Positions 2,163-15,140 of a stretch of 58,563 nucleotides of DNA are shown in pieces. This DNA comes from Gammaproteobacteria bacterium. Lineage in GTDB: Bacteria > Pseudomonadota > Gammaproteobacteria > Porifericomitales > Porifericomitaceae. The position numbers were made by a program, and so were the translations under genes. The DNA is taken from assembly GCA_014238615.1 (NCBI GenBank), contig JABAAT010000041.1:1-58563 (forward strand), in the 5' to 3' direction. The notes under the pieces are model-generated. The model was not told the DNA's origin. It made no database searches and worked only from the letters and a program-made list of their open reading frames with translations. Positions within the stretch are counted from its first letter, which is position 1. The number at the start of each line of letters is the position of its first letter.

Positions 2163-3158
2163 CTACTCGGCCGCGTCGCCTGGTGCCCGTCGTTCCAGGG
2201 GAACGGAGCGCGGCATCAGGGTCTTCCACAGGCGGCCTTTCCCGGCACCCTTCCAAACGATGGAAGGCATGAGCCTGAGCGCCTTCCAGAGGCACTTGCA
2301 ATTTTCCGAAAAATGCCGGAAACGCCGCCGCCGCGACAGGTGGTAGCAAATGAAGGCAGTCACCTCCCTGCCAAATTCCGCCTGGAAGGCTTCCATGTAC
2401 CACGGGAAATATTGCGCTACCACCTGTTTCGTAAGCCGCCGCTGGCGTTTTTTATGCCTGACGCTCAGGCGGGCCTCGTTCCGAAGACTTCGATACAGGT
2501 AAAGCGATTGGTCCAAGTGGACGAACTTCCCAAACAGTTGCAGGCGCAAAAAATATTCGTAGTCCTCGATGATGCGCCAATCATCCCTGTAACCTTCCGT
2601 GCGCAACGCCAGGGAACTCCGGTACAGGAAACAGGCTCCCACGGCCCAGAAACCCAGCAACAGGACGCCGCGCGAGTCAGCACAGGTTTGGATGCGGCTG
2701 AGTTGCTGCTCCGAGCCATCCGGGTTGAAATATAAAAAATCGAAATTCGCGTGCACCAGGCCGACGTCGGGGTCACTTTCCAAGACCTCGCGCATGCCGC
2801 GCAGGGCATGCGGATAGTACTCGTTGTCATGCGAAATCCAGGTGTAGTACTCACCGCGCGCCGCGCTGAAGCCGTTGTTCAAAGAATTGGGAAGACCCTC
2901 ATTGCATGCGTTACGCAGCACCCGAATCCGCTGATCCCGCGCCGCGTAGGCTTGAATGATAGCGGGAGTGGAATCCGAGGAAGCATCGTCCACGATCAAC
3001 AATTCGAAATCCCGCAGGCTCTGCGCCAGGCAGCTTTCAATCGCGCGCGCCAGGAAGTTTTCGCCGTTATAGACCGGCAGTACAATGCTGACAGAGGGGC
3101 TGACAGAGGGGCTGACGGAGGGGCTGACGGGGGGCATGTGCGGTTTCTGCTGTTTCAT
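2163..3158 (-). CDS. Family 2 glycosyltransferase
   Basis: Inverting GT-A glycosyltransferase, likely acting on a cell-surface glycan at the cytoplasmic face. The 331-residue product has the nucleotide-sugar binding start SIVLPVYNGE, the VDDASSD acidic motif, a DxD-like SHDNEY segment, and an EDYEYFLRL segment supplying the likely catalytic base. The chosen ATG at 3158 begins MKQQ; an in-frame ATG at 3230 would add 24 residues but has no better ribosome site. Residues 11-24 are a repeated SVSP peptide from a 12-bp tandem repeat, so the extreme N-terminus is low complexity and the real fold begins at SIVLPV. It diverges from the three-domain gene at 3492, and both look part of one surface-polymer region. 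The sugar substrate cannot be predicted. Confidence 0.88.
   Translation of the reverse strand: MKQQKPHMPPVSPSVSPSVSPSVSIVLPVYNGENFLARAIESCLAQSLRDFELLIVDDASSDSTPAIIQAYAARDQRIRVLRNACNEGLPNSLNNGFSAARGEYYTWISHDNEYYPHALRGMREVLESDPDVGLVHANFDFLYFNPDGSEQQLSRIQTCADSRGVLLLGFWAVGACFLYRSSLALRTEGYRDDWRIIEDYEYFLRLQLFGKFVHLDQSLYLYRSLRNEARLSVRHKKRQRRLTKQVVAQYFPWYMEAFQAEFGREVTAFICYHLSRRRRFRHFSENCKCLWKALRLMPSIVWKGAGKGRLWKTLMPRSVPLERRAPGDAAE
3087..3134. repeat. 12-bp tandem repeat inside the GT2 gene 5' end
   Basis: About four copies of gctgacagaggg (third and fourth slightly changed). On the minus strand they encode the repeated Ser-Val-Ser-Pro segment at the N-terminus of the glycosyltransferase. The unit length is a multiple of three, so copy-number change would keep the frame. 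Confidence 0.85.
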
Positions 3159-3244
3159 GACTGCCGCTTGCTGCGCAGGATTATATAGAAGACCCAGGCG
3201 GCGGAACCCGGGGCAGAGCGCTTCAGCCATCCCAAAAGCGGATC

Positions 3245-3491: not shown

Positions 3492-6188
3492 ATGAAAATC
3501 GTTTTCCCCTTGCTCAGTTACGGCTGCTTGTTCAGCCTGCATCCGATCTACAAGGAACTAGAGAAACGGGGGCATGTTGTCCGCTATTTGTTACGAGCCA
3601 GACGTAAAAAATGCTTTGTGGAATTTCGAAGGGATTTTCCAACCTACGGGATCAGCACCGAGTCAAACGCGGACCGTAACGCGGATGTAGTCGTCGCACG
3701 AGGAGCTGCAAGAAGATTTACCAACGCGATACAAATCAAGTTGATTTACGGCGTTAATCTACTACACCAACAGGGCTTCGCCCAAAGTCGGGCAGCCTTG
3801 GAAGGTTATGACGGAGCCTTGGCCTTTGGCGACTACTCGGCCCAACAAGCCGCCGCGTGGCTGCCGTCGGCGCGAGTCAAGTCGATCGGTTCGCCGATGC
3901 ATGATGATTTTTTCCGTAATCCCCCCGATGCGGCGACGACGCGGGCGCGCTTCGGAATCGCTCCCGAAGACAAACTCATCGTATATGTCACGACCTGGGA
4001 CGAACATTGCGGTGTCAGCCTGTTCGGCGCGCCGCTGCGGAACCTGGCGCGGGAACATGTCATGGTGGTACGCCCGCACCAGGGTATCTACGATGTGATA
4101 TCCCTCGGCATCTATCAAAGATATGCCCTCGAGACCGGTTGCCACCATTATTTCTCTCCGCCGGGTACGGCGAGTGCTATTGAAAAGCTGACTCCGCATC
4201 ACGACTTTCCCCGCCCTTTACCGGGGGAAATGATCCATAGCATGGGGGAGATCGTGCGCGCCGCCGACCTGTTGATCGTGGACGCCAAAAGCGGTTCCCT
4301 GGCGGAGTGCGTCCTATGTGCGCCGCAAACGCCTCTGATCGGCCTGTCCACGATGAGTGACGGTGAAAAGAATCGTCGCTTTCTGCCGGAAGTCTATGAA
4401 ATCTGTACGCTCGTGAATCATCCCGCACGGTTGGAGTCCGCGGTGCGGGACGCCTTGGCCGACGACCCGCTCGCCGAGCGGCGCGCCGCCTTGCGCGACC
4501 AGTTGTTCAGGCCCTGCGAGGGCCGCGCCGCTGCGGTCGCCGCCGACGCCATCCTGGAATTGGCCCGAATGCCGCGGCTCGCGAAACCACGGGCACCGCA
4601 CCGCCTGGGTGTGCGCCTGCGCCGTTCGCTGCGGAAAAGATGGATGCGCGTCCTGGCACTCCGCAAGGTCACCGGCGCACTGGTGCCCCCTTACCGCCGC
4701 TGCATGTCCTGGCTCCGGAAGCATTCATTGCCCGGACAGGGGGTCCGCGTATTGGTGGACGGCCGGCGGGAGATGCCGCCTTACCCGGAAGTGTCCGGCT
4801 ACCTGATTCCGACCCTGCTGCGCTGGGGAGAACGCACCCTGGCCCTGCAATATGCCCGCTGGCTCATCGGCCTGCAACGGCCGGACGGCGGTTGGTGCGA
4901 TGCTCATGGTAAGGCGCCATACGTATTTGGCAGCGGCCAGATCCTGAAGGGCCTGCTGGCGGTGGTGGAACTGCAGCCGGACGCGGAAAAGGCGATCCTG
5001 CGCGGCTGCGATTGGCTGCTGACCCACATCACTCCCGAAGGCCGGATGACATCGCCCACGCGGGAAATGTGGGACGAGTCGACGGGCGTTACCGACCTGA
5101 TACACCTTTACTGCCTGGAGCCGCTCCGCCTGGCCGCACGGCGCTTCCAGCGGCCACAATACGAGGAGGCGGCGCAAAAAGTGTTGGCCTACTACCTGCG
5201 CGAGCATAGGGATAAGCTCCTGGATTTCCATGCGCTGTCGCATTTCTACGCCTACATGCTGGAAGGACTCGTGGATATGGGGGAAACAGACACGGCGCGC
5301 GCCGCCATGCGGCAGGTGGCGGCCTTGCAAAAACAGGACGGCTCCATCCCGGCCTACAAGGACGTGTCCTGGGTCTGCTCGGTCGGACTGCTGCAGTTTG
5401 CCGTGATCTGGTACAAGCTCGGTGACCTGGAACGCGCCGATCGCGCCCTGAATTGCGTCGTGAAAAAACAGCACGCCGGCGGCGGCTTTCATGGTAGTTG
5501 GGGAAGCGGCGCGAACTACTGTAAAAAACAGGAAATCAGCTGGGCCTGTAAATATTTTCTGGACGCGCTGTATTGGAAGCAGCAAGTCCATTTCGAGCAC
5601 GCGAGGGAACGGGGCCGCGCCGCCGTGATGGCGCCGGCGGCCGGCGATACGCTGCGGGAAACGGACGGGCGGGTACAGGGCGCCTTGCATGCCATCACCG
5701 ACGCCGCACCGGCAAGTCTCCTGGAAATGGGTTGCGGCCAGGGCCGGATCACGCGCTTCATCAGGCAGCGCTTCCCGAAACTCCGGATCTGCGGCCTGGA
5801 TATCGACCCACGCAACCTGGACGAACTGCCGCCGGACATCGAAAGGACGTGCGGCGGCATGCTGGCGACGCCTTTTCCGGATGCTTCCTTTGACTTCGTG
5901 CTCTACGTGGAATCCCTGTTACACGCCGTGGATGTCGAGAACGCCTTGCGCGAGGCGGCGCGGCTCCTGGCACCGGGAGGCACGCTGCTGGTCGTTGACA
6001 AGGACATAAGAACCAGGGTCAGGATGCCTATCCCACCCTGGGAACAATGGTTTCACCCGGAGGAACTGGCGGCGACGGCGCTGCACACCGGCTTCACCGC
6101 GGTGCGGGTGCAAAGCAACATTCCCTATGATCATCGCGACGGCAGCGACGGGCTGTTCTTTGCCCTGGCGGCAAGGAAAGGCGGCTGA
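3492..6188 (+). CDS. Three-domain surface-polymer protein: CDP-glycerol-transferase-like + alpha/alpha toroid + SAM methyltransferase
   Basis: An 898-residue protein with three fused parts. Residues 1-360 resemble GT-B enzymes of the CDP-glycerol glycerophosphotransferase (TagF-like) group; VRPHQG near 194-199 and DAKSGSLAE near 264-272 fit their donor-binding region. Residues 415-700 form helical repeats with GWCDA, QDGSIPAY and GGGFHGSWG loops, typical of alpha/alpha toroid folds seen in terpene cyclases and glycan-active enzymes. Residues 725-898 are a class I methyltransferase with motif I LEMGCGQG at 743-750 and acidic CGLDID at 767-772. It has no signal peptide. A LicC-like cytidylyltransferase follows after about 40 bases. 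Inference: it builds and methylates a phospho-alcohol or phospho-sugar surface group. The first 300 bases are visibly richer in A/T than the housekeeping genes, hinting at transfer. Domain assignment is moderately sure; the reaction is not known. Confidence 0.72.
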   Translation: MKIVFPLLSYGCLFSLHPIYKELEKRGHVVRYLLRARRKKCFVEFRRDFPTYGISTESNADRNADVVVARGAARRFTNAIQIKLIYGVNLLHQQGFAQSRAALEGYDGALAFGDYSAQQAAAWLPSARVKSIGSPMHDDFFRNPPDAATTRARFGIAPEDKLIVYVTTWDEHCGVSLFGAPLRNLAREHVMVVRPHQGIYDVISLGIYQRYALETGCHHYFSPPGTASAIEKLTPHHDFPRPLPGEMIHSMGEIVRAADLLIVDAKSGSLAECVLCAPQTPLIGLSTMSDGEKNRRFLPEVYEICTLVNHPARLESAVRDALADDPLAERRAALRDQLFRPCEGRAAAVAADAILELARMPRLAKPRAPHRLGVRLRRSLRKRWMRVLALRKVTGALVPPYRRCMSWLRKHSLPGQGVRVLVDGRREMPPYPEVSGYLIPTLLRWGERTLALQYARWLIGLQRPDGGWCDAHGKAPYVFGSGQILKGLLAVVELQPDAEKAILRGCDWLLTHITPEGRMTSPTREMWDESTGVTDLIHLYCLEPLRLAARRFQRPQYEEAAQKVLAYYLREHRDKLLDFHALSHFYAYMLEGLVDMGETDTARAAMRQVAALQKQDGSIPAYKDVSWVCSVGLLQFAVIWYKLGDLERADRALNCVVKKQHAGGGFHGSWGSGANYCKKQEISWACKYFLDALYWKQQVHFEHARERGRAAVMAPAAGDTLRETDGRVQGALHAITDAAPASLLEMGCGQGRITRFIRQRFPKLRICGLDIDPRNLDELPPDIERTCGGMLATPFPDASFDFVLYVESLLHAVDVENALREAARLLAPGGTLLVVDKDIRTRVRMPIPPWEQWFHPEELAATALHTGFTAVRVQSNIPYDHRDGSDGLFFALAARKGG

Positions 6189-6229
6189 CTTCCCTTCAGC
6201 ATGGCACTTGATGGTTGAGCATTCAGGGT

Positions 6230-6985
6230 ATGAAGGTCGTCATTCTCGCGGCCGGGCAGGGTTCCCGCCTGGCCCACTTCACCGCTTCCAGGCCGAAAAC
6301 CATGGTGCGCGTGGCGGGCGAAGCCATCCTGAAGCGCCAGCTCCGGGCTTACCTCGCGGCCGGCCTTTCCGAGCGGGAGATCCACGTGGTCGCCGGCTAC
6401 AAGAGGGACAAGATCAGGGACTACCTGCGGGACCGGTATCCCGAGGTCCGCGTCATTGAGAATCCACGTTATGCGGAAACCAACAATATGTATTCCCTGT
6501 GGCTCGCGCTACGCGCCCTGGAGGAAGGACACTGCGACCTGCTGCTCGGCAACGGGGACAACGTGTTTGACAGCACCCTGGTGCGGGCGCTCCTGGAGTC
6601 CTCCGGCAACCGCATTCCCGTCCGGCCCGGGGCCTACGATCATGAGGCGATGAAAATCGTTGTGGCCGAGAACGGGCGCGTCACGGATATCGCCAAGACC
6701 ATTCCCCCGCACCGCGCTTTCGGTGTTTCCATGGACCTCCACAAGATAACCATGCCGGCACAACAACGCCTGCTGCAACTCATGGAGGAGCATCTCACCG
6801 AGAAAGGAGAAAAAGACTGGTTCGAGACGGTCTTCCCGGCGCTTTTTACCACGCGGCGCTTCGACTTCCTGGACACCGGCGCGGAGCGCTGGTACGAAGT
6901 GGACACACCCACCGACCTGGAACGCGCCAATGCACTTTTCAGTGCTCCACGTCCCGCCCCCGGCGCCTTGAAAAATCCCCCGTAA
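6230..6985 (+). CDS. LicC-like nucleotidyltransferase (phosphocholine cytidylyltransferase family)
   Basis: A 251-residue NTP-transferase of the GT-A-like fold, expected to couple CTP (or another NTP) to a phosphorylated alcohol or sugar. It has the family start MKVVILAAGQGSRL with the nucleotide-binding glycine loop, the RPKTMV substrate segment, the TNNMYSLW stretch typical of LicC-type cytidylyltransferases, the GNGDN metal-binding aspartate, and a late WYEVDTPTDLERA segment. The ATG at 6230 is preferred over a TTG at 6215 because the family begins directly with this strand. It follows the three-domain protein by about 40 bases on the same strand; making the CDP-linked donor for that protein's transferase domain is the simplest reading. 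Uridylyl or guanylyl activity cannot be excluded. Confidence 0.8.
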   Translation: MKVVILAAGQGSRLAHFTASRPKTMVRVAGEAILKRQLRAYLAAGLSEREIHVVAGYKRDKIRDYLRDRYPEVRVIENPRYAETNNMYSLWLALRALEEGHCDLLLGNGDNVFDSTLVRALLESSGNRIPVRPGAYDHEAMKIVVAENGRVTDIAKTIPPHRAFGVSMDLHKITMPAQQRLLQLMEEHLTEKGEKDWFETVFPALFTTRRFDFLDTGAERWYEVDTPTDLERANALFSAPRPAPGALKNPP

Positions 6986-7271: not shown

Positions 7272-7766
7272 TCAAACCACCACCTGGCAGGCACGCAGAA
7301 ATTCCACCCAGTTCATGCATTTCACATTCAACTTCTCACAGACACGTGGGATCCTATACCTGGAACGATCTTTAGGGGGGGTTACCTGCGGGCTTTCTTG
7401 CGTAACCACCGTAAATCCGTGTTTCTGGGCATAAACGACAAGAGACATGTCCTTGCGACTGAGTCCTTCCCGGCTGTTCTCCTTAAATTTAAATGATTTG
7501 GACAAATCCACAATCTTCTGACTCTCCACGTCGGAGGATACGGGATTGAGCGGGATCTTCCGAAGCCATGTCCGGAGGTCCCCAAATTTATTGGATTCAT
7601 CAGTGCTCTTGATCTCACTGAATATCTCCTTCAAAACCAGGGCGTATTTCGGAAAGACTCCTTTTAACTTCTCGTACAAAGCAGGGAAAACATCCGGGGG
7701 GTAACCCTCCTGCCATGCGTGTAATAAAGCACTGCTGTCCATACAATAAACGTCCCCGGAGCTCAC
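7272..7766 (-). CDS. DUF4411 family PIN-like toxin candidate
   Basis: A 164-residue protein of the DUF4411 group, PIN-domain-like putative ribonucleases found beside HTH/ImmA-IrrE proteins. The typical opening is present: YCMDSSALLHAW with the first catalytic Asp, then YPPDVFPALYEKL. The conserved later segment reads KDMSLVVYAQKHGFTVVTQES, with a second acidic position. The GTG at 7766 is preferred because GTGA overlaps the stop codon of the upstream HTH-peptidase gene by four bases, a translational-coupling arrangement; an ATG at 7742 would remove the strand before the Asp. Both genes are richer in A/T than their neighbours, as for mobile defence modules. RNase or toxin activity is inferred from family and context. 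Confidence 0.78.
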   Translation of the reverse strand: MSSGDVYCMDSSALLHAWQEGYPPDVFPALYEKLKGVFPKYALVLKEIFSEIKSTDESNKFGDLRTWLRKIPLNPVSSDVESQKIVDLSKSFKFKENSREGLSRKDMSLVVYAQKHGFTVVTQESPQVTPPKDRSRYRIPRVCEKLNVKCMNWVEFLRACQVVV

Positions 7767-8950
7767 AGCAGCTCTTCCAATTCCCCGGCATAGCGAACCT
7801 TGGTCAGGGACAAGATCCCGCATAGCTTACTCAAGGAGATTTCCTTGTCATAAAAGGCCTGCAGCACGGCTCCTGTATATAACCCGCCGAACTGCTGGAG
7901 TGTCTCTTTAGGGATGTTCCGGGGCGGCCCCCCGGATGTCTCTTTCTGTTTACCTTGGGCTTCCTCCCACTTAAGAGCCAAATACTCCTTCACGGCACGA
8001 TAAGCAGACCATTTCATCTCTCCTAGTCGACACATTTGAACAGCTGCCGCCAAGGGGCTTACCCCGAAGTGCCTGGCCACCGGCTCCAAATCCCTGGAGT
8101 GTTTTTCAGGTCCTCCGGAAAGTCGCACCTGCTCTCTCGCGTATCCCTTGAAGTCTTCCCGCGGCATCAACAGGTCGGCCGCAAACTGATTACAGAGCGA
8201 TTCCTCATTCTGCGAACGAAAGTCCTCGAAGTCTCCGACATCCCGAAATGTCTTCCGCCCCAGCACGTGCGCCAATTCATGCATGAGGGTAAAGGTCCGG
8301 GCAGGATGACTGTCGGAACCATTGACAACGATCACCGGCAGGGTTTCGTGGAACAGGGCAAGCCCTCGCATCTTGTTGACTTCCATTTTCGACCAGTGCG
8401 GGCGACTCCGGGTCATAAATACAAAGATGTTTTTCTCTTCGATAGCCTTCCTCCACAAGGGGAAAACATCTTGTGGTTTCCTCGCGGCCTTGACTTGTTC
8501 ATCCAGGGAGACTCCCAGCCATGCCCGAACCCTCCCGGGCGAAGGAACTCCATGATGGTTTGCCGGGCCGTCGAACGGGGGGATCGCGCTGCCCTCGTTG
8601 CGGCACAATTCCAGGAGATGTTCGCGCAGGTCTTCCACTGTCTGCACTAATCTCCGCACGCGATAGGAGAATTCGACCTTCCGCCCGCTCAAGGAACGAA
8701 AAACCGGGGTCTCCTGGAAGCGGAACTCCCGGGGAAGCATTTTCTCCTGGAACACCCAGGTAGGAACCAGGTAGAGATCGGCGAGCCTGCACAGCTGCAG
8801 ATACGTCGGTTGATGCTCGCCGCGCTCTACCTCGGGCAGTTTCTTCATGTCGCTAAGCCGCCCCGCCTCGTCCAAGTCGAGGCCGAGCTGCTCACGACAC
8901 TGCTTCAATACGCCCCCGTTGATCCCGGCAATCCGTTGGATTTTACCCAT
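7763..8950 (-). CDS. HTH-type regulator fused to ImmA/IrrE metallopeptidase (antitoxin-like)
   Basis: A 395-residue two-part protein. Residues about 8-65 form an XRE-like helix-turn-helix (LDLDEAGRLSDM...LPEVERGEHQPTYLQLCRLADLY). The C-terminal half is a COG2856/ImmA-IrrE zinc peptidase with HELAH at 224-228 and the downstream NEESLCNQFAADLLMP helix carrying the third ligand. Such proteins cleave or sequester regulators and often pair with DUF4411 toxins. The ATG at 8950 has GAGGG upstream at suitable spacing. The gene is coupled to the toxin-like gene by a GTGA overlap. Autoregulation by the HTH domain is likely but no operator was identified. The region is A/T-richer than the flanks, suggesting acquisition. 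Confidence 0.85.
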   Translation of the reverse strand: MGKIQRIAGINGGVLKQCREQLGLDLDEAGRLSDMKKLPEVERGEHQPTYLQLCRLADLYLVPTWVFQEKMLPREFRFQETPVFRSLSGRKVEFSYRVRRLVQTVEDLREHLLELCRNEGSAIPPFDGPANHHGVPSPGRVRAWLGVSLDEQVKAARKPQDVFPLWRKAIEEKNIFVFMTRSRPHWSKMEVNKMRGLALFHETLPVIVVNGSDSHPARTFTLMHELAHVLGRKTFRDVGDFEDFRSQNEESLCNQFAADLLMPREDFKGYAREQVRLSGGPEKHSRDLEPVARHFGVSPLAAAVQMCRLGEMKWSAYRAVKEYLALKWEEAQGKQKETSGGPPRNIPKETLQQFGGLYTGAVLQAFYDKEISLSKLCGILSLTKVRYAGELEELL

Positions 8951-9710: not shown

Positions 9711-10871
9711 TTATGTTTTGCCGGTCGCGGACACGGGTGGAGGAGCCGGTTCGCGACCAGCCAGGATGTCGGCGATGCGCGGCGCCGACCGGCCGTCCCC
9801 ATAGGGATTCGGTGCGGCCGCCGCGGCCGCGTAGGATGCGGGGTCATCCAGCAGTTCGAAGGTCTCGTGCGCAATACGCCGGCCGGTCGCTCCGGCCAGT
9901 ATTACCGCGCCGACCGCCTCCGCCTCCGGGCGCTCCGTGACCTCGCGCATCAGGATCACGGGTTTGTCCAGGGACGGCGCTTCTTCCTGGATACCGCCAC
10001 TGTCCGTGAGGATCAGCCGGCAGGACTTCATGGCCAGCACAAAGGCTTCGTATTCCAGGGGCGGCAGCAAGTGGATATTCGGTTGCCCGGATAACTTCTT
10101 CCGCACCGTCCCGCGCACCCGGGGGTTCAGGTGCACCGCGTAAACAATATCCAGGGTGCGGCGCGTGCGCGCGATTTCCAGCAGACCGTCACAGATGTTC
10201 CGGAGACCCGCGCCGAAGCTTTCACGCCGATGCCCGGTGACCAGGATGAAGTCGCGCCGTGACAATGGGTAGCCGGCCTGCCGCAGGAGCTCGGCGGCGG
10301 GGGCCGGATCCTGGTCCAGGCGGGCGCTCACGGCGAGCAGTGCGTCCAGCACCGTGTTGCCGGTCACGTGAATCTCGCCATGCACCTTTTCGCGGCGCAG
10401 GTTCTCGGCGTTTGCCGCGGTGGGAGCAAAGTGTGACAAGGCCAGGTGGCTGATCAGCACCCGGTTCAATTCCTCCGGCCAGGGTCGGCTTCGGTCATAA
10501 CTCCTGAGGCCGGCCTCCACGTGCGCCACGTGCACATCGTTCAGGGCGGCCGCCAGCGCGGCGGCGAGCGCGGTCGCGGTGTCGCCCTGCACGAGCACCA
10601 GGTCCGGCCGCTCCCCGGCGATGACCTTCTCCAGTTTCCGCATGACGGCGGCCGTCACTGAATTCGGGGTCTGTCGCTCGCGCATCACGTCCAGGCTTAA
10701 ATCCGGGGTCAGGTTGAAGCAGCGCAAAGCCTGGTCCAGCAGCTGACGATGCTGCGCGCTGGTGCAGATGCGTACCGTGAAATCCTCGGGGCACCCGCGC
10801 AAACAGGCCGCGACGGGTGCCAGCTTGATGGCTTCCGGCCGGGTGCCAATGACGATCAGTATTTTTTTCAT
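9711..10871 (-). CDS. wecB: UDP-N-acetylglucosamine 2-epimerase (non-hydrolysing)
   Basis: Converts UDP-GlcNAc to UDP-ManNAc for surface polysaccharides such as enterobacterial common antigen or O-antigen. The 386-residue product starts MKKILIVIGTRPEAIKLAPV with the family's N-terminal active-site Arg, then has the VEAGLRSYD motif (catalytic Glu), TGHRRES (catalytic His), and DSGGIQEEAP for UDP binding. The ATG at 10871 gives the family's normal N-terminus; the open frame upstream to 11171 is antisense-like extension into the next gene. No wecC (UDP-ManNAc dehydrogenase) lies nearby. It follows a CgeB-like glycosyltransferase on the same strand, consistent with one glycan locus. Confidence 0.95.
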   Translation of the reverse strand: MKKILIVIGTRPEAIKLAPVAACLRGCPEDFTVRICTSAQHRQLLDQALRCFNLTPDLSLDVMRERQTPNSVTAAVMRKLEKVIAGERPDLVLVQGDTATALAAALAAALNDVHVAHVEAGLRSYDRSRPWPEELNRVLISHLALSHFAPTAANAENLRREKVHGEIHVTGNTVLDALLAVSARLDQDPAPAAELLRQAGYPLSRRDFILVTGHRRESFGAGLRNICDGLLEIARTRRTLDIVYAVHLNPRVRGTVRKKLSGQPNIHLLPPLEYEAFVLAMKSCRLILTDSGGIQEEAPSLDKPVILMREVTERPEAEAVGAVILAGATGRRIAHETFELLDDPASYAAAAAAPNPYGDGRSAPRIADILAGREPAPPPVSATGKT

Positions 10872-10923
10872 GCGACGGAATCTGCAAACCACGCGCCGGC
10901 CGCCTGTCCGACGGGGTGACTCT

Positions 10924-12030
10924 TCATCTGCCGCCGTGGGCCGCGGCAGCACCCGGTGGATAGCTGTCCGCCCGTGCCGGAGCCTCGTTCGATCGCCTTG
11001 TCGGCCATTCATAGTCTTCACTGTAGGGACGCCCCATGGCGGTTTCCAGGAGGAAGCGGGTGACCCGAACCTCGTTGAAAACGCGGTGCGCCTTCTCCCA
11101 GCCGGCACGGGCCGTGGCGCGGGTCTTGTCCGCACATGCCAGGTATTCCTTGAACTTGTCCTGGAACTCATCCAGGTCCTTGAAATAAACGACTTCTTCC
11201 TCGCTGAAGCAGCTTTCCATACCCGGCACCCGCGGACAAAAAGTCAGCACGCCGTTGCCGAGGAGGTGGATCATCCGGTCCGAGGAATATAAGGGGATCT
11301 CGTTGTTGTGGAGACTGTAGTTGACGCCCATTTGGGAATGACCGACGACATCCAGGTAGGAAGCGCTGTTCAGTTGGGTTTTCTGGGTCTGGCCGTAGAT
11401 GCCGACCCGGTAGTGAACCGCGAGCTCCCGCAACCGCGCAACCAGGGATTGTCTTGAGGCGGCCGGACGACCAATGTAGATCAGATCGTAACGGTGCTCC
11501 CGCCGTGCGAAGGAGCGGTGGGTGTACACCGAGCCGTCGCAAATATTGGGGAAAAAGTGAATGCGTTCGGCCGTGTCACCAAGGATTCTTGCGGCGTAGG
11601 CCGCTTCCGTGGTGCAGAAGAAAGCGTCCAGGAAAGGCAATTTCCGCTTGATACATGTTAATGCCTTGGCGCGTTCCGGATGCAGGGAGTCCACCCACCA
11701 TTGGACGATACGGATGCGTGGCAGGGCCTCACGCACGGCGTGCAGGGTGGCGGAGGTCACCTGGCGGGCGTGCCCCAGCAGGAGCAGGTCCGGGGCGAAG
11801 CATCTTGTCGTCTTCAGCAGCAGCGCATTCATGGCGGCGCGGCCGCTCCAGCAACCGCGCAACACGCGGCCGCGGTGAAACCGCGTGGTGTCATCCACGC
11901 TGAAGTCAAGCACACAGTGGCCGTTGCGATTGAGGCCGTTGTGCACGGCGCGGGCAGGGGCATACACATAGGCCAGGTTCGACTTCCGCGGGGGATACAG
12001 GGAAAAATTGGCAGCGTGGAGTATCTTCAT
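10924..12030 (-). CDS. CgeB-like glycosyltransferase
   Basis: A 368-residue GT-B protein resembling the CgeB/YkvP group of glycosyltransferases. The N-terminal Rossmann half begins MKILHAANFSLYPPRKSNLAY and has a DLLLLGHARQ strand. The C-terminal half has the signature YDLIYIGRPAASRQ, the IYGQTQ turn, GVNYSLHNNEIPLYSSDR, and an EEEVVYFKDLDEF donor-binding end. No signal or membrane segment is seen. It is followed 52 bases later by wecB on the same strand. It probably transfers a sugar in surface glycan or protein glycosylation; donor and acceptor are unknown. The last 25 residues are low complexity. Confidence 0.78.
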   Translation of the reverse strand: MKILHAANFSLYPPRKSNLAYVYAPARAVHNGLNRNGHCVLDFSVDDTTRFHRGRVLRGCWSGRAAMNALLLKTTRCFAPDLLLLGHARQVTSATLHAVREALPRIRIVQWWVDSLHPERAKALTCIKRKLPFLDAFFCTTEAAYAARILGDTAERIHFFPNICDGSVYTHRSFARREHRYDLIYIGRPAASRQSLVARLRELAVHYRVGIYGQTQKTQLNSASYLDVVGHSQMGVNYSLHNNEIPLYSSDRMIHLLGNGVLTFCPRVPGMESCFSEEEVVYFKDLDEFQDKFKEYLACADKTRATARAGWEKAHRVFNEVRVTRFLLETAMGRPYSEDYEWPTRRSNEAPARADSYPPGAAAAHGGR

Positions 12031-12132: not shown

Positions 12133-12819
12133 TCAGTCATGCAACCCGTCCAGCACTTCCACACCGGGCGGCGGCGTGAACTGGAACAGGGCGGGGTCCG
12201 GGGGGGGCTCTTCTTTCACATCACTGAATTGCAGGCCGGTGAGTTGGCCGAAATGATCCCACATGCGCAGTTGTTCCAACACCCCTCGGTAAAAGCCGAT
12301 TTCAAGCTTCCTGATCCGGGAGGCTTCCCCGCGCGGTGAGAACATCAGCCAGTAGCGGCCGTCCGCGTCCTGTCGGTCGCCGTCCACCTGGAAGTCTGCC
12401 TCCAGGCGCGTGGGCTCCAGGAGCAGACCGACCGGGGTGCGCAGCACCTCTTCGTCCAGTTCCCGAACCGTGATCTGCCCCAGTTCCTGATCGTAGTTCC
12501 AAACCCTGGCGCCGTCCACCAGCAGCAGGTGGGGATAGGGTGCGGCGATCTCCCAGCGCAGGCGGCCGGGGCGCAGCATGTGCAGCATGCCGCTGTTATG
12601 GTCCAATTGCTCTCCCGTCTCATCCAGCACAAGCAATTCAAAGCGGGCCTGCAAAGCCTCTATGCGCCCCAGGTAAGCGCGCGCCTCGGGGATGGATTGC
12701 ACCGCGTGCGCCGTCGATCCGAGGAGCCAGAGCGGCAACGCCAGCAGGAGCGACGGCAGGACCCGGGGGCAACCGCCCGGGCGGGCGGCGGCACCGCTCA
12801 AGGCATGCCGGGCTGGCAT
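12133..12819 (-). CDS. lolA: Outer-membrane lipoprotein carrier protein LolA
   Basis: Periplasmic chaperone that carries lipoproteins from LolCDE to LolB at the outer membrane. The 228-residue precursor has a signal peptide with hydrophobic core [12 protein letters not shown] and an AHA cleavage site near residue 39. The mature part shows the LolA fold pattern: a long helix with [13 protein letters not shown], then [29 protein letters not shown] and VGLLLEP. It overlaps the end of ftsK by 22 bases, so the two are transcribed together, the standard gammaproteobacterial order. A later start that avoids the overlap is possible. rarA, the next gene in many relatives, is absent. Confidence 0.93.
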
Positions 12820-15140
12820 TTCTCGCCGCGCGCGAGCACTTCCCGGTTGCCGTTCGTCTCCAATGGCCCCACGAAACCCTGGCGCTCCATCTCTTCCACC
12901 AGGCGCGCGGCGCGATTGTAGCCGATCTTAAGGCGGCGCTGGATTCCGGAGACAGAAGCGCGGCGGGTATGCATCACGATTTGCAAAGCCTCGTTGTAGA
13001 ACGGATCATCGTCGGAAACAGCCGGCGGATCCACGCCGGGCAGGGGCGCGGCCTCGCCCGCATCCCCTTGCAGAATCTCATCGTGGTAAGCCGGCGCACT
13101 GTTCTCCCGCAGTTTCCCCACGACCCGCTGCACATCGTCTTCACCCACGTAGGCACCGTGCACCCGCTCCGTGATGGAGCTGCCGGGCTGCATAAACAAC
13201 ATATCACCGTGGCCAAGCAGATGCTCCGCGCCCATCTGGTCCAGGATGGTGCGGGAGTCCACCCTTGAGGACACCTGGAAGGCGATACGCGCCGGAATAT
13301 TAGCCTTGATCAGGCCGGTGATCACATCCACCGAGGGGCGTTGGGTGGCAAGCACCAGGTGGATCCCGGCGGCCCGCGCCTTCTGGGCCAGGCGCGCGAT
13401 CAGCTGCTCGACCTTTTTCCCGGTGGTCATCATCATGTCGGCGAGTTCGTCCACGAACACGGCGATGTAGGGCATTTCCTGAAGCGGCTCTTCCCCTGGT
13501 CCCCGCGCCGATTTTCGGGCCCGTTCCCGGACGCAGCGGTTATAACCGGCCAGGTTGCGTACCCCCAGGGACGCCATGTGTTGATAGCGGCGCTCCATCT
13601 CGTGCACGCACCAGCGCAGGGCATTGGCGGCCAGCCGTACATCGGTCACTACCGGCGTCAGCAGATGCGGGATGCCATCGTAAACCGACAGTTCCAGCAT
13701 CTTCGGATCGATCAGGATCAGGCGCACCTGCTCGGCGGAGGACTTGTAGAGCAGGCTCAGGATCATCGCGTTCAGGGCCACGGACTTGCCCGAGCCGGTC
13801 GTGCCTGCCACCAACATATGCGGCATTTTCTCCAGTTCAGTCACGAAGGGACGACCGGCGATGTTCTTGCCCAGTACCAGCGTCAACGGCGAAGGGCTAC
13901 GTTCAAACTGTCGGGACGCAAGCAACTCGTGCAGCGTGACGAGTTCCCGGCGCTGATTGGGAATCTCCAGCCCAATCACGGATTTGCCCGGGATCACATC
14001 CTGCACTCGCACGCTGGACACCGACAACGAACGGGCCAGGTCCTTGGACAGTGAATTGACCTGGCTGCCCTTGACGCCGGGCGCCGGCTGCAATTCGAAG
14101 CGGGTGATGACCGGGCCGGGGTAAACCCCCATGACGCGGCCCTGCACACCGAAATCACCGAGCTTAATCTCCAGGCGGCGGGCCATCGCCTGCAGCTCCG
14201 TGTGCTCGTCGCCCGACGTTTGCGCCGTACCCGGAGCACCGCCGGGCGGCCCCGACCGCCCGTCCCGCGCCGCTCCCTCCGGCGCACCCGTGGCCAGCAG
14301 GTCCAGGGTCGGCCGGGTCTTGGCCGAGGGCGCATTGAACAGTTCCGCCTGGCGCTCCAGCAGCGAACGATCGCTTTTTTTAACGGGGGCCGGCAAAGAG
14401 CCAATGTGCGGCAGCGGGCGATCTTCCATGCGCGCCAGCCCCCGGCGCAGTTGTTGCTGGCGTTCCAGGCGCGCGCGACGCGCCTGCACGGCGGTGCGTA
14501 TCCAGCCGAACGCCAGTCCCTGCAGCCACAAGGCCCGGCGTCCGACCCACCCGGTCAGGACCGGCCAGGGCAACCGGGTGAACAGGCTCAGGCCGAACAG
14601 CATGGCGAGCAGCGCCGCCAGGGTGGCGCCCGTCAAGCCCAACGGTCCAAGCAAGGTCGCGCCAAGCGCATCGCCCAGCACCCCTCCACCACCCGCGCCG
14701 TGGTGCGGCAGGCGGATGGCGCCTTCGTAATAAAATTCCCCGAGGCAGCACATGCCCGCATAGCCAAGCGGCAAACCCCAGATCCTGAGCCAGGGGCGCA
14801 TTGTGCGCAAATTGCGGTAATCCGGAGCGGGTGCCAACCCCCAGCCCAGGCCGACCAGGGCGAAGGGGAGCAGGTAACCCGCGTAGCCGAACAGGTAAAG
14901 GCTCACATCGGCTACCCAGGCGCCTGCCGGACCACCGAGGTTATGGGTCATCATGGCGCCTGACTGGACTTGCGACCAGCCGTTATCGGCGGGGTGATAG
15001 CTGACCAGCGCCAGCAACAGGAAACAGCCGGCCAACCATGTGAGCGCCAGGTGCAACCCCTGCAGCAACCTCGGAACGAGGCGCGGCAGGCGTTTCGACG
15101 CCTGTCCCCGGTTAGTTCGAAATTGACTTAGAATTTCCAT
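12798..15140 (-). CDS. ftsK: DNA translocase FtsK
   Basis: Septal double-strand DNA pump that clears and aligns chromosome ends at division. The 780-residue product has four hydrophobic segments in residues 30-190, a short Pro/Gly-rich linker (about 240-310), then the RecA-like motor with Walker A GTTGSGKS at 446-453, Walker [13 protein letters not shown], and the [14 protein letters not shown] segment. The C-terminal winged-helix gamma domain ([24 protein letters not shown]) would read KOPS sequences. The linker is much shorter than in E. coli, making this a SpoIIIE-sized form. A 12-bp perfect palindrome sits just upstream of the ATG. Confidence 0.97.

Follow-up and report, generated by a model that had tools for sequence, protein, structure and literature searches.

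A three-domain protein from a gammaproteobacterial glycan island contains an apparently undescribed toroid-methyltransferase pair found across many phyla

The window, by which we mean the whole 58,563-nucleotide stretch of DNA that was analyzed, carries a glycan island between metAP (1275-2069) and lolA/ftsK (12133-15140). This island comprises a GT2 glycosyltransferase gene, a gene fusing three domains, a LicC-like gene, a DUF4411 and HTH-M78 gene pair, wecB, and a second glycosyltransferase gene (Table 1). The fusion gene is a single open frame at 3492-6188 of the forward strand, encoding 898 amino acids from an ATG start with no internal stop, and its coding score is positive in every 100-codon block but the first. 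The first-pass annotation had described the gene as a GT-B transferase, a toroid, and a SAM methyltransferase in one frame, and Pfam, profile, and fold matches agree with these domain calls. It had also described the first part as A/T-richer, and indeed the first 100 codons have a GC content of 48.7% (GC3, 0.55), compared to 57 to 70% (GC3, 0.65 to 0.81) in the remaining blocks.

Table 1. Coordinates of island genes and of the domains encoded by the fusion gene
Feature	Positions	Strand	Evidence
GT2 glycosyltransferase	2163..3230	-	PF00535 2.9e-32
GT-B domain, TagF/TarL (CDP-polyol phosphotransferase) superfamily, residues 1-~360	3492..4571	+	PF04464 in relatives, TagF profile match, TarL fold match
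Arg/Lys-rich linker, residues ~361-400	4572..4691	+	sequence
(alpha/alpha)6 toroid, residues ~401-706	4692..5609	+	79-sequence alignment, AlphaFold2, Foldseek
Class I SAM methyltransferase, residues ~725-898	5664..6185	+	Pfam Methyltransf_11, family motifs
LicC/PntC-type cytidylyltransferase, 251 aa	6230..6985	+	NTP_transf_3 1.1e-13
wecB/mnaA-type non-hydrolysing UDP-GlcNAc 2-epimerase, 486 aa; not in fusion-gene operon	9711..11171	-	TIGR00236 2.7e-124
Glyco_trans_1_2 (PF13524) glycosyltransferase	10924..12030	-	1.4e-14

In three relatives, no island gene was found as a neighbor of metAP or lolA; together with the A/T-rich start of the fusion gene, this fits the acquisition suggested earlier. 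An empty site could not be demonstrated owing to contig ends, as metAP lies at the end of its contig in two of these genomes (G001 and G002) and in none of the three do metAP and lolA share a contig. Within the island, positions 7272-8950 hold a DUF4411 gene and a gene for an HTH-plus-IrrE/M78 metallopeptidase, a pair that is probably toxin-antitoxin-like. Upstream of metAP, a 321-amino-acid frame (313-1278) matched no family; a relative of it sits beside metAP in two related genomes.

A single-sequence scan of genome contigs returned nothing; it took the toroid alignment as query to recover 80 loci, which come from many phyla. With the window included, the toroid is followed directly by the methyltransferase in one protein at 53 of 81 loci, always with the toroid first, and the other 28 have the toroid only. 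The N-terminal partner is variable; examples are the TagF-like domain in the window and in L039, a GT2 domain in L031, L032, L053, L059, and L072, and a Rossmann-like domain of 110 residues (read by eye) in Lachnospiraceae. In L018, L019, L021, L022, L029, and L055, the toroid-methyltransferase gene is followed directly by a gene in which another methyltransferase is fused to a TagF-like domain, a TagD-type gene also lying close by, and in L080 (Gammaproteobacteria) the same parts occur as separate toroid-methyltransferase, LicC-like, and TagF-like genes. By sequence comparison, the conserved core is the toroid plus the methyltransferase, and the transferase is an exchangeable partner. The three-part fusion was found again in L039; the unit that is conserved is smaller than the one first singled out.

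Given that L039 is an unrelated contig with the complete window order (GT-B, toroid, methyltransferase), and that the toroid and methyltransferase are fused at so many loci, we ruled out a frame artefact joining separate genes; the window fusion is not a chance read-through. L039 also has a similar basic stretch ahead of its toroid. Nor did a single known family extend over the whole protein, the matches instead falling domain by domain: the sole confident Pfam match was Methyltransf_11 (residues 744-833; 6.7e-18), accompanied by a weak SQHop_cyclase_C match (residues 455-517). The first-pass annotation knew of no described system with this domain order, and we likewise found none in the open-access papers searched. 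The fusion protein is absent from the three other genomes of the same taxonomic order, and a survey of 369 genomes of the class yielded relatives of the toroid or of the methyltransferase only.

The neighborhoods of the toroid loci, which contain wecB, GT2, Wzm/Wzt, teichoic, phosphocholine, and phosphonate genes, back the surface-polymer setting proposed at the outset. A TagF-like GT-B domain is fused or lies within 8 kb at 18 of 53 fused loci and at 0 of 28 toroid-only loci (Fisher P = 2e-4), and most of these 18 also have a cytidylyltransferase; a clear cytidylyltransferase of any type lies within 8 kb at 22/52 fused loci versus 1/28 toroid-only loci (Fisher P = 2e-4; window excluded, strong matches picked by hand), but both tests are confounded by ancestry and overstate independence, the toroid-only loci being mostly from related Proteobacteria and five Gastranaerophilales loci being similar to one another. 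Within 8 kb, TagD-type genes accompany 13 fused loci and 1 toroid-only locus and IspD-type genes 14 and 0; the corresponding numbers for LicC-type genes, at a loose cut-off, are 16 and 1. wecB is frequent in both groups (45/81 loci within 8 kb; 23 fused, 22 toroid-only). The CDP/CMP routes represented are TagD-type, IspD-SDR (TarIJ-like), choline kinase-LicC fusions (L030 and L048), and PEP mutase-cytidylyltransferase fusions (L040 and L063). A LicC-like gene does not always adjoin the fusion; TagD- or IspD/TarI-type cytidylyltransferases stand in its place at other loci. In L039 the run consists of Wzm, Wzt, an IspD-type gene, the three-domain fusion, and wecB.

The GT-B domain was assigned through its relatives. 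Residues 1-383 of the window protein alone had no Pfam match, while four aligned relatives reached the Pfam cut-off for Glyphos_transf (PF04464), namely L039 (5e-10), L080 (3e-9), L019 (1e-8), and L018. A family profile built on a 15-sequence alignment of the N-terminal domain matched TagF (3l7i; 1.7e-9), aligning the TagF catalytic H584 with the invariant H196 of the family and placing the D264/S267 pair close to the TDYSS motif. A predicted model of the domain (m61e0d9d9ebc3; pLDDT, 81) had TarL as its best fold match (5e-10), with general GT-B enzymes close behind. The other catalytic histidine of TagF, H444, appears to have no conserved counterpart in the family; an invariant Tyr86-Gly87 lies approximately where WHG would be expected, by spacing, in a part outside the TagF alignment. 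We searched the toroid loci for canonical WHG/TDYSS TagF proteins with which to align H444 and found none. Since a counterpart of H444 is apparently missing, the CDP-polyol chemistry of the domain may be altered or lost. TagF-like polymerases carrying extra domains are already known. TagF/TarL and the Gram-negative capsule polymerases Cps1B and Cps7D have in common with the window family the GT-B superfamily, the H584 position, and multidomain fusions with other transferases, and in many toroid loci, too, enzymes that would make CDP-activated donors are encoded nearby. The fusion partners in the known polymerases are a second transferase and a TPR domain, however, and not a toroid and a methyltransferase (PMC5974469), and the window family differs from TagF/TarL-type polymerases in apparently lacking a conserved H444 counterpart.

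The toroid was modeled with high confidence from a 79-sequence alignment (AlphaFold2; 12 helices; pLDDT, 95.8). Its invariant residues (W407, E433, G436, Y437, F479, H584, Y588, C629, Q635, Y676, W684, and K687) are polar and aromatic and are placed largely at the starts of inner helices, as expected of a functional cavity in the model. This placement argues that the domain is more likely catalytic or glycan binding than a spacer, and it sharpens the initial view that the toroid had no obvious role and could bind or edit the glycan. In the Foldseek search, the best solved match was MmpH (7qsj; TM, 0.75; 8.9e-10), followed by terpene cyclases, GH88/GH105 enzymes, and complement thioester domains, and a polysaccharide lyase also matched; squalene-hopene cyclases match about as well as MmpH. 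A sugar 2-epimerase role of the AGE type is disfavored, as AGE enzymes use a two-histidine mechanism and the family has one invariant histidine. We also rejected a prenyl or terpene cyclase role, given the polysaccharide setting and the missing DxDD motif, no motif of this type being found among the conserved columns of the 79-sequence alignment; the family shares QW-like repeats and fold with squalene-hopene cyclase and prenyltransferase-repeat toroids but lies in polysaccharide clusters and has another set of invariant residues. MmpH is a toroid hydrolase of methylmannose polysaccharide whose gene cluster holds methyltransferases and a glycosyltransferase, a setting like the one here, but it is unfused, is only ~15% identical, and has a base residue that is apparently not conserved in the window family (PMC9883506).

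The methyltransferase domain has the family motifs GxGxG and DK..WEQWF. G747 and G749 of the glycine-rich SAM motif and D770, the acidic residue after strand 2, are invariant in 53/53 sequences, and the window copy retains an intact SAM-binding motif (LEMGCGQGR). It departs from the family at L810 (E in 52/53), V843 (G in 51/53), and L892 (W in 51/53), and its toroid has G480 where 78/79 sequences have D or N. In view of these four departures, the window copy may differ in specificity or be functionally weakened. Methyltransferase chain terminators are already known; in WbdD and the Klebsiella pneumoniae O7 terminator, a methyltransferase is likewise fused to another enzyme of polysaccharide assembly, and their Wzm/Wzt export setting is matched by part of the toroid loci, but the window protein has a toroid and a TagF-like domain (GT2 at other loci) instead of a kinase (PMC11231755). 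A Pfam search of the 898-amino-acid protein for a kinase domain found none.

The gene that follows on the same strand, correctly called LicC-like from the start, probably begins at ATG 6230 rather than at TTG 6215, where the longest frame opens. Its product is a MobA-like NTP transferase matching LicC (1jyk; 1.8e-12), inositol-1-phosphate cytidylyltransferase (2e-10), and PntC (4e-10), the inositol-1-phosphate enzyme being about as strong a full-length match as LicC and PntC. It contains the motifs LAAGxGSRL-PK, NNMYSL, GD, and WYEVD, and thus the PK, GD, and ExD metal motifs of the fold. It shares sequence family, substrate-binding and metal motifs, and a glycan-decoration setting with the phosphocholine and 2-aminoethylphosphonate cytidylyltransferases LicC and PntC (PMC6697681); it is a separate gene, and the PEP mutase-linked pair of this genome is on another contig, C47. 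There, a LicC-like gene stands in one run (G000, L109:5931-10687) with genes for a PEP mutase-LicC fusion that has the EDKLFPKSNS motif, for a TPP enzyme similar to phosphonopyruvate decarboxylase, and for a class V aminotransferase. Together these seem to make up a full pathway to CMP-aminoethylphosphonate, so phosphonates probably decorate the surface of this organism. On the same contig, a protein kinase domain and a cyclic-nucleotide-binding domain are joined in one protein (L109:4473-5822), and a cNMP-binding and rhodanese protein is encoded nearby (10921-12021).

Drawing on sequence and on analogy with these systems, we propose, with a probability of about 0.45, that the fusion protein works in the cytosol close to the membrane, tailoring or capping a surface glycan while it is being assembled. 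The downstream LicC/PntC-type enzyme would use CTP to form a CDP- or CMP-activated group, such as a phospho-alcohol, a phosphocholine-like group, or aminoethylphosphonate, and the TagF/TarL-type GT-B domain would attach this group, or a different unit activated by a nucleotide, to the glycan as it grows. The toroid would hold the glycan end, and maybe cut or rearrange it, and the methyltransferase would O-methylate the same end, such that a single polypeptide decorates and methyl-caps the chain. The activities, substrates, and step order proposed here are inferred, with the transfer, toroid, and methylation steps taken from family knowledge. What the sequences themselves show is the domain anatomy of the protein, that the toroid-methyltransferase pair is widely conserved, and that TagF-like and cytidylyltransferase genes are associated with it. 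The proposal is weakest where a counterpart of H444 is apparently missing and where the window copy makes its four departures. The route first envisaged, CTP activation followed by transfer and methylation, is plausible, but its LicC-like partner is not universal.

An unlikely alternative, though one deserving attention, is that the GT-B domain is an ordinary nucleotide-sugar glycosyltransferase, that the protein acts as polymerase and methyl-terminator, and that the neighboring cytidylyltransferase serves another enzyme. The lack of an apparent H444 equivalent would suit this, as would the closeness of other GT-B enzymes to TarL in the fold search, the five loci in which the core pairs with a GT2 domain (L031, L032, L053, L059, and L072), and the Wzm/Wzt genes of many loci, which suit capped-chain export. 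Yet TarL is the best match by fold and TagF by profile, and the same GT-B family occurs at 18/53 fused loci, most of them with a cytidylyltransferase too.

We give little credence to a role for the toroid in trimming or recycling glycan as a glycoside hydrolase or lyase, as MmpH does with methylmannose polysaccharide, while the methyltransferase marks new chain ends. MmpH is the top fold match, GH88/GH105 enzymes and a polysaccharide lyase also match, and the invariant E433 sits at the helix A-B junction as do Asp47 and Asp50 of MmpH; however, the MmpH base Glu262 maps, by residue spacing and not structural alignment, near the invariant Cys629/Thr631, where the family has no acid, squalene-hopene cyclases match about equally well, and at position 480 the conserved D/N is missing from the window copy. 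Still more improbable is that the gene was acquired and is now decaying, the window copy having partly lost the activity of a family functional elsewhere. The four substitutions at near-invariant sites, spread over two domains, the A/T-rich start, and the absence of the fusion from the three relatives point that way, but the frame is open across 898 codons with coding-like codon usage, and both the SAM motif and the remaining invariant residues of the toroid are preserved.

Beyond tailoring by this one protein, it is a long shot that the pair represents a new, phylum-spanning class of glycan end processing, in which the toroid would cut or rearrange the end, the methyltransferase would cap it, and exchangeable transferases would add a CDP/CMP-activated group. 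By sequence, the pair is apparently undescribed and conserved across many phyla; we found no published description of it, or of its TagF-like fusion, and no role assigned to it, in the open-access papers searched. The surface-glycan clusters that carry it belong to gut Clostridia, Gastranaerophilales, Treponema, Proteobacteria, Planctomycetes, and further groups. Its strict conservation in teichoic, phosphocholine, and phosphonate company leads to a testable prediction, namely methylated, phospho-decorated polymers on little-known surfaces.

Of 398 genomes sampled from the phylum, 33 carried a broad toroid subfamily, which also occurs in haloarchaea. On a Haladaptatus plasmid (L128; NZ_CP119792.1), a toroid relative lies beside an alginate-lyase-family gene and a sulfatase gene, with wecB further off.
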